A stretch of 64,000 nt of DNA from Nitrospiraceae bacterium (GTDB lineage: Bacteria; Nitrospirota; Nitrospiria; Nitrospirales; Nitrospiraceae): the NCBI GenBank assembly GCA_013140715.1, contig JABFSG010000026.1:1-64000 (forward strand), read 5' to 3'. Both the position numbers and the translations under genes were made by a program. This document shows positions 6,081-63,336 of this stretch, piece after piece. Under the pieces are notes generated by a model. The model did not search any database. It saw nothing but the letters and a program-made list of their open reading frames with translations, and was not told where the DNA came from. Positions within the stretch are counted from its first letter, which is position 1, and every line of letters starts with the position of its first letter.

Positions 6081-6171
6081 GGGTTTGTTCGGTTCATTTG
6101 GTTCATTTGGTTCGTTTTGTCTATTTGGTCCAACCAAATAAACGAGACAAACCAAACAAACTGAATAAACA
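6081..6171. repeat. nonamer strand-switch array, family A copy 1 (fliN-fliO spacer)
   Basis: The left arm is a row of nonamers of type GGTTYRTTT (GGTTCATTT twice); the right arm is a row of AACCAAATA / AACCAAACA-type nonamers. The arms meet at TTTGGTCCAACCAAA. The transcript could fold into a long imperfect hairpin. The array ends just before the fliO ribosome site (GGAGG, 6177-6181). Three more copies are at 23899, 58679 and 63250. Confidence 0.85.
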
Positions 6172-6184
6172 AGACTGGAGGAAC

Positions 6185-6541
6185 GTGATCGATTTCTGGG
6201 ACAGTTTTCTACGAATGGCGTCGGCGTTGGCCCTTGTGCTGGCTCTCATAGGAGGGTTGGTTCTATTGATTCGCCGATTTACAGGTACAAGGTTGGGCGC
6301 GCCTGTATCCACGCAGATTGTCCAGGTCCTCGGCAGCGGGTACATCGGCCCACGCAAGACGATTTCTCTGGTATCGGTTGCAGGGGAACTCTTCGCGGTC
6401 GGCATGACTCCGACGGAATTGGTGTCTCTCGGCCATATCCAGGATCGGGAGCGAGTCCAGCAGTTTCTGTCTGCGGCGACAACCGGTCGCCCGATCGCAA
6501 CCGGCCGGCAGTCAGAGACGAGAGGTGGCCATGCAGACTGA
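6185..6541 (+). CDS. fliO: FliO, flagellar export apparatus assembly protein
   Basis: About 118 residues: one N-terminal membrane helix (SALALVLALIGGLVLLIRR, about 12-30), then a short cytoplasmic domain with VQVLGSGYIGPRKTISLVSV and LFAVGMTPTELVSLG, the FliO/FliZ pattern. FliO helps FliP assemble into the export gate. The frame is open back to 6098 through the repeat array, but those codons are repeat-derived. I place the start at GTG 6185 after GGAGG, although the three-base spacing is short; ATG 6215 is the alternative. It overlaps fliP by 11 bases. Confidence 0.82.
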   Translation: MIDFWDSFLRMASALALVLALIGGLVLLIRRFTGTRLGAPVSTQIVQVLGSGYIGPRKTISLVSVAGELFAVGMTPTELVSLGHIQDRERVQQFLSAATTGRPIATGRQSETRGGHAD

Positions 6542-16678: not shown

Positions 16679-16772
16679 AACGTGTGAAGCGCGAGACGGG
16701 CGAGAATGGCGCGACGTGATCAGAGTGGGTTTTCATCTTGTCTCGCCGGTCTCGCTCGTCCCGCGTGTCGCG
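16676..16772. repeat. strand-switch repeat spacer, family E copy 1 (flgF-flgG)
   Basis: Begins GTGAAACGTGTGAAGCGCGAG at the flgF stop. A left arm with GCGCGAGACGGGCGAGA and GGCGCGACG is mirrored by a right arm with GTCTCGCCGGTCTCGCTCGT and GTGTCGCG. The words recur in the other E copies (21801, 34636, 60861) but in a different order. Confidence 0.65.
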
Positions 16773-16837
16773 CAAGAAGCACATATGGCCACATGCGCTT
16801 CACAATTTAGGAACCACGAGGGAGGTAGGAGGTTTAT

Positions 16838-18462: not shown

Positions 18463-18584
18463 CAGGATGCTGAAAAAGTCTGTCAGCGGCGTTCTCACGT
18501 CGCTCAGGGGCTCAACGTACCGAAGCGTACGCCTCGCCTCTTCGCTCGTTGCGGCCTTGCTGGACAGCCTTTTTGAGCATCCTG
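18463..18584. mobile_element. 122-bp MITE/REP-like palindromic element between flgA and flgH
   Basis: Termini CAGGATGCTGAAAAAG (18463-18478) and CTTTTTGAGCATCCTG (18569-18584) are inverted repeats with one mismatch in 16. The symmetry continues inward (GTCTGTCAGC against GCTGGACAGC) and the centre has CGTAC-CGAAGC-GTACG. It encodes no protein of its own and reads through as a false N-terminus for flgH. Elements with these ends are, as far as I recall, common in Nitrospira genomes; that is recollection, not a search. Confidence 0.75.
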
Positions 18585-22376: not shown

Positions 22377-22377
22377 C

Positions 22378-22494
22378 CGGTGAGAGGAAGGTTAAGACCG
22401 AGGTTAAGGTTGAGGCTGAGAGCAAAATGATGAAAGCCAGTTCTTTCCTCAACCTTGCCCTTAACCTCAGCCTTCTTCAGTTGTTGCAGTCCGG
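22378..22494. repeat. hexamer strand-switch array, family D copy 2 (flgN-flgK)
   Basis: Left arm of hexamers AAGGTT AAGACC GAGGTT AAGGTT GAGGCT GAGAGC; right arm CTCAACCTTGCCCTTAACC and CAGCCTTCTTCAG. The array is bounded by CCGG on both sides. The flgK start lies 12 bases beyond. Confidence 0.75.
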
Positions 22495-22505
22495 TAGAGG
22501 ACTCC

Positions 22506-23898: not shown

Positions 23899-24013
23899 CT
23901 GGTCTGTCTGGTTCATTTAGTTTATTTCGTTTGTTTAGTTTAGTTGTTTTGGTCTCTCTGGTCAGTCCGGTCAACCAAATAAACCAGACAAACCAAATGA
24001 ACTAAATAAACCG
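23899..24013. repeat. nonamer strand-switch array, family A copy 2 (flgK-flgL)
   Basis: Nonamers GGTTCATTT AGTTTATTT CGTTTGTTT on the left switch at GGTCAACC to AACCAAATA AACCAGACA AACCAAATG AACTAAATA on the right. The whole spacer from flgK stop to the flgL ribosome site is repeat. Confidence 0.85.
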
Positions 24014-24030
24014 GAAAGAGGAGTCTGACC

Positions 24031-36962: not shown

Positions 36963-36966
36963 CGGA

Positions 36967-37039
36967 GTTTCAAGTTTCGAGTTGCAAGTTTCTGGTTCGT
37001 CAACAACTAGAAACTCGGAACTAGACACTAGAAACTAGG
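36967..37039. repeat. heptamer strand-switch array, family B copy 1
   Basis: Left arm: AGTTTCA AGTTTCG AGTTGCA AGTTTCT. Right arm: AGAAACT CGGAACT AGACACT AGAAACT. They switch at GGTTCGTCAAC. The period is seven bases in both arms. A second copy is at 62764. It starts five bases after the PilZ stop. Confidence 0.8.
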
Positions 37040-56868: not shown

Positions 56869-56986
56869 CAGGTAGATAGGCTGAAGGGGTACGGGGTCTA
56901 GACTGAAGGGATTCAGGCTGAAGGCCGAAGGTCAGAGACCGAAGATCCGAACACTTCAGCCTGAATCCCTTCAGCCTATCTACCTG
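56869..56986. repeat. strand-switch repeat, family C copy 3
   Basis: Perfect 20-bp terminal inverse repeats: CAGGTAGATAGGCTGAAGGG (56869-56888) and its complement (56967-56986). Nested inside is a second perfect pair of 16 bp, GGGATTCAGGCTGAAG (56908-56923) and 56954-56969. The next gene begins eight bases beyond. Confidence 0.9.
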
Positions 56987-56993
56987 AGTCGCA

Positions 56994-58670
56994 ATGACTG
57001 ATATGCCCAAGCAAGTGCTCATCATCAACGTGACACGCATGGGGGATCTGATTCAGACCGGCCCCCTCTTGTCACGATTGCGCGAGGAATGGCCCGATGT
57101 TGCGATCGATCTGGTCGTGGATCGGAGCTTCGCGCCGACGGCATCGCTCCTAACCGGACTCCGGCAGGTCATCAGTTGCGATTTCGCCCGGCTACTCGAT
57201 GACTGTCGCACGCAATCCAAGAGCCTCGTGACACTCATGAGCGAGATGACGGCCTGGGCTGCGCCGTTGTTGGCTGCGCGGTACGATCGCATCGTCAATC
57301 TCACATTCACTCGCCCGACCGGTTTACTGGCGTCGTATATCGGTGCGCCGGACCTGAGAGGGATTACGGCAGGGCCGGATGGCGCTCCCACCGTACAGAA
57401 TCCCTGGCTGTCCTACTTCACGGATCTGCACCGCCATCGACGATTCAATCGGTTCAATCTGGTAGACCTCTATGCCATGGGCGGGAGCGGGCCCGGCTCC
57501 TTCTCGCCCCTGTCGGTAACCGTGCCGGCTGAAGGCAGGGACTGGGCCGACTCGTTCCTTCGATCCCAGGCTCAGACCGTCCGCCACTGGGTCGCAGTAC
57601 AGGTCGGAGCCAGCGATGTCATGAAGGCCTGGCGTCCGGAATATTTCGGCCGGACGATGGCGCATCTGGGCCGTCGCCCGGGCGTGGGATTTGTCCTGAT
57701 CGGCACGGCCGCCGAGATGGAGTCGATTGAGTTGGCCAAGGCGGTCTATCGGGCGGGTGGAGGAGTCGCGCCGATCCTCGATGCCAGCGGTCGGACGACA
57801 CTCCTTCAACTCGTCGGGCTGCTCTCGCATTGCCGGTTGCTCCTTACCAACGATACAGGCCCGATGCACCTGGCGGTCGGTGTCGGGACTTCGGTGATCG
57901 ACTTGTCGGTGGGCCATGTCGATCACAATGAAACCGGACCCTACGGGCCCGGCCATTGGGTGGTTCAGCCGGATCTCGCCTGCTCTCCCTGTGGGTTCGA
58001 TCAAATCTGTTCCCACCACGCCTGCAAAGATCGATTGATTCCCGAAGAGGTTTCGAATCTCTGTCTCCATGCGCTGGGACTTGCTCCATTTCCTTCCTTG
58101 AGCCCAGGTCTTCGGCTCTATCAATCGGGCGTCGATGCCGATGGACTCGGTTCCTTCACTTTGCGCGCGGGACAGGTCGATTCCGACAGCGCATGGTATG
58201 CGGGGTTTTGGAGGAGATTTTGGCATGAGGATTTTACAGGCAAGCGGAGTCTGTTGGCCGAGAATCTCGAATCTGCGCCGGACCGAGATCCTGCGCTGGC
58301 CTGGATGAGAGCCGCAGCTCAACCTCTTCGTCGACTGGAGCAGCAGGCTCGGCATATTGCGGAGCTCACGGGGCGGCATCCGCTTCCGGTTTCGACGTTG
58401 CAGCGGGCACAGGCGCAGCTTCGTCAAGAGCGAGAACAGCTTCTGCCTCGTATGATGGCCTATTCGGCCACTGGTCCGGCCACGGTTGCCATGATCAGAG
58501 ATATTCATAACGATGATGTGACGGGTCTGCCCCTGTTAGCCGATCGGCACGTCAAGGCCTATCGACGTTGGAATCAGCGCGTGGCTCGGGTCCAAGAGTT
58601 GTTGTCGTCCGCGCCGGCGAAGGTCGAGAAAAGCAAGCGTATGTTGCCGATGATACCGACCGCCGCCTAA
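56994..58670 (+). CDS. glycosyltransferase family 9 (heptosyltransferase-like), copy 2, extended
   Basis: 558 residues, about 200 longer than typical GT9. VLIINVTRMGDLIQTGPLLS, VAVQVGASDVMKAWRPEYFG, GFVLIGTAAEMESIELAK and LLLTNDTGPMHLAVGVGTSV define the GT9 core (about 5-365). A Cys-rich stretch CSPCGFDQICSHHACKD (about 324-341) and a helical C-terminal extension (about 390-558) are additional. ATG 57003 is an alternative start. A hairpin spans its stop codon. Confidence 0.83.
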   Translation: MTDMPKQVLIINVTRMGDLIQTGPLLSRLREEWPDVAIDLVVDRSFAPTASLLTGLRQVISCDFARLLDDCRTQSKSLVTLMSEMTAWAAPLLAARYDRIVNLTFTRPTGLLASYIGAPDLRGITAGPDGAPTVQNPWLSYFTDLHRHRRFNRFNLVDLYAMGGSGPGSFSPLSVTVPAEGRDWADSFLRSQAQTVRHWVAVQVGASDVMKAWRPEYFGRTMAHLGRRPGVGFVLIGTAAEMESIELAKAVYRAGGGVAPILDASGRTTLLQLVGLLSHCRLLLTNDTGPMHLAVGVGTSVIDLSVGHVDHNETGPYGPGHWVVQPDLACSPCGFDQICSHHACKDRLIPEEVSNLCLHALGLAPFPSLSPGLRLYQSGVDADGLGSFTLRAGQVDSDSAWYAGFWRRFWHEDFTGKRSLLAENLESAPDRDPALAWMRAAAQPLRRLEQQARHIAELTGRHPLPVSTLQRAQAQLRQEREQLLPRMMAYSATGPATVAMIRDIHNDDVTGLPLLADRHVKAYRRWNQRVARVQELLSSAPAKVEKSKRMLPMIPTAA

Positions 58671-58680
58671 TGGGCGGCGG
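58660..58680 (+). terminator. hairpin with stop codon in its loop, followed by T-rich array
   Basis: CCGCCGCC (58660-58667), loop TAATG, GGCGGCGG (58673-58680). The TAA of the preceding gene is in the loop. The next 45 bases are the T-rich arm of the A-family array, so the pair has the form of an intrinsic terminator. Confidence 0.6.
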
Positions 58681-58806
58681 TTCATTTGGTTTATTTCGTT
58701 TATTTCGTTTGTTTGGTTTGTGTTGTTTATTTGGTTGAACCAGACTGACCAGATAAACCAAATCAACGAAACAAACCAGATAAACAAGATAAACCAAACA
58801 AACAAC
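58679..58806. repeat. nonamer strand-switch array, family A copy 3
   Basis: GGTTCATTT GGTTTATTT CGTTTATTT CGTTTGTTT on the left; switch at GGTTGAACC; AACCAAATC AACGAAACA AACCAGATA AACAAGATA AACCAAACA on the right. This is the longest A copy and the clearest nonamer periodicity. The next ribosome site, AAAGGAG, begins just after it. Confidence 0.88.
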
Positions 58807-60858: not shown

Positions 60859-60860
60859 CA

Positions 60861-60946
60861 AGCGTCGTTTGTGAAACGTCTCCGGTGAGTGAAGCGTCGT
60901 TCGTGAAGCGTGAAGCGTCCGGATCCGGAACGAGATACGCCTCACA
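60861..60946. repeat. repeat spacer, family E copy 4 (flaG-fliD)
   Basis: Tandem words GTGAAACGTC, GTGAAGCGTC, GTGAAGCGTGAAGCGTCC, then the palindrome TCCGGATCCGGA and the word AACGAGATACGCCTCAC shared with the flgN spacer. The fliD start is 20 bases beyond. Confidence 0.7.
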
Positions 60947-60966
60947 AATACAGGAACACTGAAACT

Positions 60967-62763: not shown

Positions 62764-62911
62764 GAGTTTCTAGTTTCACCTTTCTGGTTTCAAGTTTTCG
62801 GAAGCTGGTCCCTCACAACCTGAAAACAGAGACCGGAAAGTTCCTGCGTGGCTCAAGTTTTCGAAGGGTTTTTCTGACAACATGAAACCAGAAACTAGAA
62901 ACCAGCAACTC
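62764..62911. repeat. heptamer strand-switch array, family B copy 2, running into a gene
   Basis: Left: AGTTTCT AGTTTCA CCTTTCT GGTTTCA. A middle section contains CAAGTTTTCG twice (62801, 62854). Right: AGAAACT AGAAACC AGCAACT. The right arm overlaps the first ten codons of the fliT-like gene. Confidence 0.75.
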
Positions 62912-63249: not shown

Positions 63250-63323
63250 TTTGGTTTGCATGGTTCATCTGGTTTGTTTTGTTTGTCTGGTTAGTTTCGT
63301 TCAACCAAACAAACCAAACAAAC
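63250..63323. repeat. nonamer strand-switch array, family A copy 4
   Basis: GGTTTGCAT GGTTCATCT on the left, switch at CGTTCAACC, then AACCAAACA AACCAAACA AACGG on the right. It is the shortest A copy, with a right arm of only three units. The next gene begins 14 bases later with no clear ribosome site. Confidence 0.85.
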
Positions 63324-63336
63324 GGTCTTCTAAACA

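Follow-up and report, generated by a model that had tools for sequence, protein, structure and literature searches.

The four copies of a nonamer repeat in the window (a stretch of 64,000 nt, part of a Nitrospira MAG with assembly code G000, 3.58 Mb in 105 contigs) belong to a dispersed, imperfect palindrome, here called family A, with the layout (GGTTYRTYT)n, then a centre, then (ARAYRAACC)n. Many loci share an asymmetric centre, orthologous copies show whole-unit length changes confined to a single arm, and at orthologous sites family A gives way to other hairpins or to an empty gap. Family A probably represents one of several palindrome families that are non-autonomous, dispersed, and mostly neutral and that undergo unit slippage. 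Each copy in the window lies in a gap between genes:

Copy 1, 6082..6176, + strand: fliN-fliO gap; 5 units, GGTCC, 5 inverted units; the 18-nt centre is lost.
Copy 2, 23901..24014, + strand: flgK-flgL gap; diverged centre GGTCAGTCCGGTCAACC at 23960-23976 (a 17-nt relative, judged by eye).
Copy 3, 58679-58804: whole element, in the gap between a GT9 glycosyltransferase gene and an unknown ORF.
Copy 3, 58679..58732, + strand: left G/T-rich arm of six nonamers, GGTTCATTT GGTTTATTT CGTTTATTT CGTTTGTTT GGTTTGTGT TGTTTATTT.
Copy 3, 58733..58750, - strand: centre in reverse orientation; on the - strand it reads GGTCAGTCTGGTTCAACC, which differs from GGTTAGTTTCGTTCAACC at 3 positions.
Copy 3, 58751..58804, + strand: right A/C-rich arm of six inverted nonamers.
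Copy 4, 63253..63324, + strand: between an unknown ORF and a PilZ-domain gene; 4 units, 2 inverted units.
Copy 4, 63289-63306: centre, an exact GGTTAGTTTCGTTCAACC.

The junction strings that the first-pass annotation quoted for the four copies were all found in the window. Predicted folding is strong for copies 1-3 (RNA folding z-scores of -4.7, -6.3, and -6.2) and only -1.4 for copy 4; no Rfam family matched within the window at the gathering score. The suggestion that the arrays stay open when read, as at the start of fliO, was borne out only in that a raw ORF (6098-6541) begins within the array of copy 1. The array itself is not coding, since it sits between the fliN stop codon, directly 3' of which copy 1 begins, and the fliO start, and since the orthologous gaps (95, 104, 113, 121, and 76 nt) are not all in frame. 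A GC stem across the GT9 stop codon (CCGCCGCCtaaTGGGCGGCGG, window 58658-58682) lies directly before copy 3, and in G003 it is preserved through changes on both sides (CGCAGCCtagTGGGCTGCG). An intrinsic terminator, i.e., a stem followed by a U-run, was considered for the nonamer palindrome and rejected; no terminator match falls on the palindrome, and the matches belong to this GC stem.

The exact unit dimer GTTYRTTTNGTTYRTTT occurs 83 times in forward and 79 times in reverse orientation in the 3.58 Mb assembly, compared to 7 and 10 times in the reversed control; the nonamer arrays proposed earlier thus exist far beyond chance. Genes were called with a simple codon-usage script written for this analysis. 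In the stretches around matches, which were chosen for holding matches, 85 of 89 exact dimers fall outside called genes, while genes make up 87% of the sequence. The hairpins were taken from the same stretches, giving a sample of 79 (52 from G000 and 27 from relatives), some of which are orthologues and hence not independent. Family A copies occupy gaps that run from a stop codon to the next Shine-Dalgarno sequence. Family A is almost restricted to the genus Nitrospira, with 0 to 225 exact matches per congener (MAG assemblies, one genome per species), and the plasmids, phages, and viral contigs searched gave no match. At least six family A hairpins are found within 13 kb around metabolic genes (citrate synthase, malic enzyme) at C68:85000-98000 of G000; no recombinase was detected among the genes scanned there.

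When the centres were aligned in both orientations, the recurring element was an asymmetric 18-mer, GGTTAGTTTCGTTCAACC, present in either orientation. It is found with two or fewer mismatches in 20 of the 79 hairpins and with three or fewer in 28; centres with shuffled loops predict 0.08 and 0.4, respectively. The unit to the left of the centre is also nonrandom: its position 8 is C in 20 of these 28 copies, compared to 29% of units overall (p = 5e-6). An ordered core common to many unlinked loci points to descent by copying. The earlier proposal of a common centre therefore holds at many loci, but that centre is asymmetric and has been lost in many copies; only about a third keep it, and the others lost the core or have different loops. 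The palindromic GGTTNAACC, which had been taken as the shared centre, matches literally in copy 3 only and is a fragment. Nor is a general palindromic switch point supported; a GTTNAAC-like middle junction occurs in just 32 of 79 hairpins. At one further locus (L032, 11014-11232), a family A hairpin carries another, MITE-like palindrome with arms CTAGGGAAGGTCTGATTAATTC in its centre. Concentric nesting is not general: flank complementarity was 4, with 2.8 expected, and we thus regard the nested cases as anecdotes.

The arms comprise 2 to 11 units, with a mode of 5, and the outermost units are mixed. Arms do change by whole nonamers, as had been predicted. In the fliN-fliO gap, G000 and G019 are 97% identical except for one extra nonamer, GGTTCATTT, in the left arm; at site 58671, copy 3 of G000 has one left-arm nonamer more than its G003 orthologue. 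There was no support for the two arms growing together from the centre, as the clean unit changes are confined to one arm. Among indels of at least 3 nt between orthologues, 25 of 52 are multiples of 9, counted over pairs that are not independent, and most of those in the flgK-flgL gap are not multiples of 9. The match score per nucleotide was 1.248 for a hairpin's own arms and 1.238 for swapped arms, with the own arms better in 145 of 312 comparisons. The own arms match no better than swapped ones, and there is thus no mirror-unit relation; on the same grounds, we rejected mirror copying of the arms through fold-back or quasi-palindrome correction.

Family A is not alone: gaps between Nitrospira genes often contain long tandem-unit hairpins, with units of 6, 7, or 9 nt depending on the family. 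Those of the window, besides family A, are:

16682..16773, + strand: GC-rich hairpin with 9-nt periodicity; different families at the orthologous site.
22377..22505, + strand: hexamer AGGTTR hairpin, at the intercistronic site before flgK.
36966..37036, + strand: heptamer AGTTTCN (B7) hairpin.
56869..56986, + strand: GGCTGAAG-type (E7) palindrome; the gap is absent in G010 and G018.
60859..60966, + strand: heptamer CGTGAAR (D7) repeat.
62765..62911, + strand: heptamer AGTTTCN (B7) hairpin, extending into the start of the next ORF.

The CGTGAAR heptamer is found throughout the family Nitrospiraceae, with zero control matches in these genomes; the hexamer and AGTTTC heptamer families are patchy among genomes. 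Orthologous gaps were aligned across up to nine genomes. The family labels were assigned from motif and periodicity, so that single assignments may be misread; the printed sequences show the family differences plainly. The flgK-flgL gap holds a nonamer hairpin in G000, G002, G003, G019, G009, and G010, a single remaining arm in G006, a hexamer hairpin in G016, a GTGAAAR heptamer hairpin in G004, and none in G018 and G023. The site before flgK displays four kinds in nine genomes: the hexamer (G000, G016), the CGTGAAR heptamer (G002, G004), the nonamer (G019, G006, G018), and another palindrome, CAGGATGCTG (G003, G010). Site 16679 is occupied, depending on the genome, by the GC-rich nonamer, a GGCGAGA heptamer, the family A nonamer, the CGTGAAR heptamer, or a further heptamer. 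Site 60859 measures only 18 nt in G002, G004, G010, G016, and G018; G000 and G003 contain different heptamer repeats there, and G019 contains two of these together. Sites 60859, 13877, 7335, 62763, and 56864 are empty in many congeners, and sites 16679 and 22377 hold some hairpin in all or nearly all genomes examined. Given that the same gap carries unrelated hairpins or none in relatives, these elements behave as spreading repeats and not as parts required by the adjacent genes. In G002, the 211-nt gap at site 58671 contains two adjacent hairpins, an AGTTCTG heptamer and a nonamer.

Hairpins that show a G/C imbalance nearly always begin with the G-rich arm: all 78 such hairpins of family A do so, as do 59 of 61 from the other periodic families (137 of 139 in total), also where the flanking genes converge or diverge. 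Since a palindrome reads with identical polarity on either strand, the G-first order is not set by the direction of transcription. Each family keeps a single polarity, and perhaps only four to eleven families are independent, so we give the polarity moderate weight as mechanistic evidence.

Several known classes of repeats were compared to family A. MITEs, ERIC, NEMIS, RUP, and BOX elements are dispersed non-coding palindromes of about 100 nt with empty and filled sites, and family A resembles them in dispersal and in site occupancy. It differs in that neither fixed ends nor a parent transposon were found, and in that arm length varies by whole units; the constant terminal inverted repeats and length of MITEs are not seen in copies with 2 to 11 units and mixed outermost units. 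Cyanobacterial STRRs are short-unit direct arrays concentrated between genes. The heptamer repeats of Beggiatoaceae, e.g., TAACTGA, form direct arrays between genes with no inverted second arm (PMC4679880). Family A shares with both the short, mostly intergenic units; however, it has the inverted second arm, and the sequences are unrelated. REP, BIME, and REPIN elements measure 20-40 bp, are tagged with GTAG or CGTC, and are in most cases accompanied by a RAYT (PMC3733652, PMC3116915). They too are high-copy intergenic palindromes with several families per genome that vary between strains. In contrast, the family A arms are tandem nonamer arrays totaling about 70-130 nt, with no tag and no linked RAYT, and membership in REP/REPIN was rejected because the tags are not enriched and no RAYT is flanked by family A. 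The RepRanger survey includes predicted REP-like palindromes of Nitrospira moscoviensis (PMC12306157); the passages of that survey examined here do not mention tandem-unit arms, families of such arms, or turnover between species. An integron attC site was also rejected: the unit reads GTTYRTT and not the GTTRRRY/RYYYAAC core, and G000 contains no IntI above the cut-off. The same search found none in G002, G003, G018, and G019. One clear integron integrase was found in G008 (C10:192882-193826, 464 bits), the only one among the six genomes searched.

An alternative to neutral spread is that the hairpins are selected in the mRNA of operons, where, as REP/BIME elements can do, they would protect the intercistronic part of the transcript, process it, or insulate it. 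A long stem of any sequence would be enough, and the units could therefore turn over while the hairpin persists. The strong predicted stems are consistent with this, as is the placement in the 64 codirectional gaps, where the median distance is 7 nt from the stop codon to the array and 19 nt from the array to the start codon. Sites 16679 and 22377, which keep some palindrome despite changes of family, point in the same direction, and some hairpin could be useful there. However, a stem needed in the transcript should tolerate G.U above A.C on the sense strand, and the 64 codirectional family A hairpins contain 160 G.U and 162 A.C. The other periodic families contain 96 and 79 (p = 0.23), while the tRNA stems in the same loci contain 6 and 0; the power to detect a 60:40 ratio was 0.94. 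The absent G.U excess and the arm-swap result both speak against pair-by-pair RNA selection; the G.U test excludes strong selection of this kind, though a requirement for a long hairpin of whatever sequence is compatible with it. Many congeners have empty sites, and occupancy is similar in codirectional (40 of 129), convergent (8 of 23), and divergent (4 of 19) gaps, in loci chosen for matches. We consider selection of mRNA hairpins unlikely as the main explanation.

The remaining alternatives concern how the arms arise or what moves them. If G-rich units were added to both 3' ends at a break before these were joined, the arms would be G-first and not mirror images of each other. The polarity of nearly all hairpins, divergent and convergent gaps included, and the lack of mirror matching fit such a double-ended addition, and one-sided G-rich arrays exist in a toxin-antitoxin island of G019. 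Nevertheless, unlinked loci share the 18-nt centre and the order of the units beside it, which indicates copying, and a polarity that is constant per family leaves few independent cases. We know of no bacterial enzyme for this reaction and judge it very improbable. Movement as REP/REPIN elements by a RAYT (Y1) transposase is already largely refuted and hardly credible. G000 has one Y1_Tnp gene and congeners up to seven, but no family A copy is adjacent to the G000 gene, and Y1_Tnp was not found in G018 and G015, both rich in family A (G015 is only 71% complete). In addition, the REP tags are not enriched: GTAG and CGTC occur at 7 and 7 of 158 ends, compared to 6 and 19 in the distal control. 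Equally hard to credit is a phase-variation locus in which unit number switches the neighbouring genes. Unit number does vary between species, and several copies lie in flagellar operons; however, the arrays are non-coding, degenerate, and without pure repeat tracts, and housekeeping genes, e.g., those for citrate synthase and malic enzyme, are also among their neighbours.

Under the preferred reading of mostly neutral dispersed palindromes, an ancestral family A element of n nonamers, the 18-nt asymmetric centre, and n inverted nonamers would have spread in some Nitrospira lineages. Its copies would have come to rest in the short stretches that separate a stop codon from the next Shine-Dalgarno sequence, since insertions are tolerated there, and each arm would then have changed separately through replication slippage of whole 9-bp units and point mutation. 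Family A would be one of several palindrome families occupying the same sites interchangeably, and no particular family would then be needed at a given site. We infer that the copies descended by copying, that their retention is mostly neutral or selfish, and that slippage causes the unit changes. No transposase or uniform ends were found for family A. In the comparison for target-site duplications, the filled and empty orthologous gaps were too diverged to fix the junctions. The best pair of family A copies within a genome is just 89% identical over 80 nt; no recent copy event is therefore visible. The G-first polarity of nearly all families is not predicted by simple random mobile repeats, and it counts against the preferred reading. 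A bolder version, which we regard as distinctly unlikely, is that a common Nitrospira process installs unrelated tandem-unit palindromes, mostly G-first, in intercistronic gaps and replaces one family by another, which would make them a new class of repeats with its own mechanism of dispersal or synthesis.

Dispersed intergenic palindromes have long been known in bacteria. Unusual here are the short tandem-unit arms with their G-first rule and the replacement, among close relatives, of one family by an unrelated one at a given intercistronic site. No description of these hairpins was found in the literature searched, which was mainly open-access papers. If confirmed, these features would point to an unknown mechanism of spread. 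Identical operon junctions that are empty or hold a nonamer, hexamer, or heptamer hairpin would also form a natural series, and the old question of whether such hairpins matter at all for operon expression would become directly testable.

The toxin-antitoxin-rich island of G019 (C10:1-20000; DUF433/DUF5615, HigB, FitA/PIN) carries one-sided G-rich arrays in its gaps, with several unit families mixed and the hexamers in one orientation about every 1 kb. An integron array was considered here, given the small toxin-antitoxin genes and one-sided arrays, but was rejected, as G019 has no IntI above the cut-off. A separate palindrome with the ends CAGGATGCTSAAAAAG ... CTTTTTSAGCATCCTG, of about 124 or 200-250 bp, is located at 18463-18584 of the window and also at sites in G003 and G010. 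It was detected in 31 of 32 genomes; most of the genus carries 80-200 half-sites per genome, with zero control matches. The start of this palindrome often directly follows a stop codon, and between its arms there is sometimes a nonamer or heptamer hairpin.
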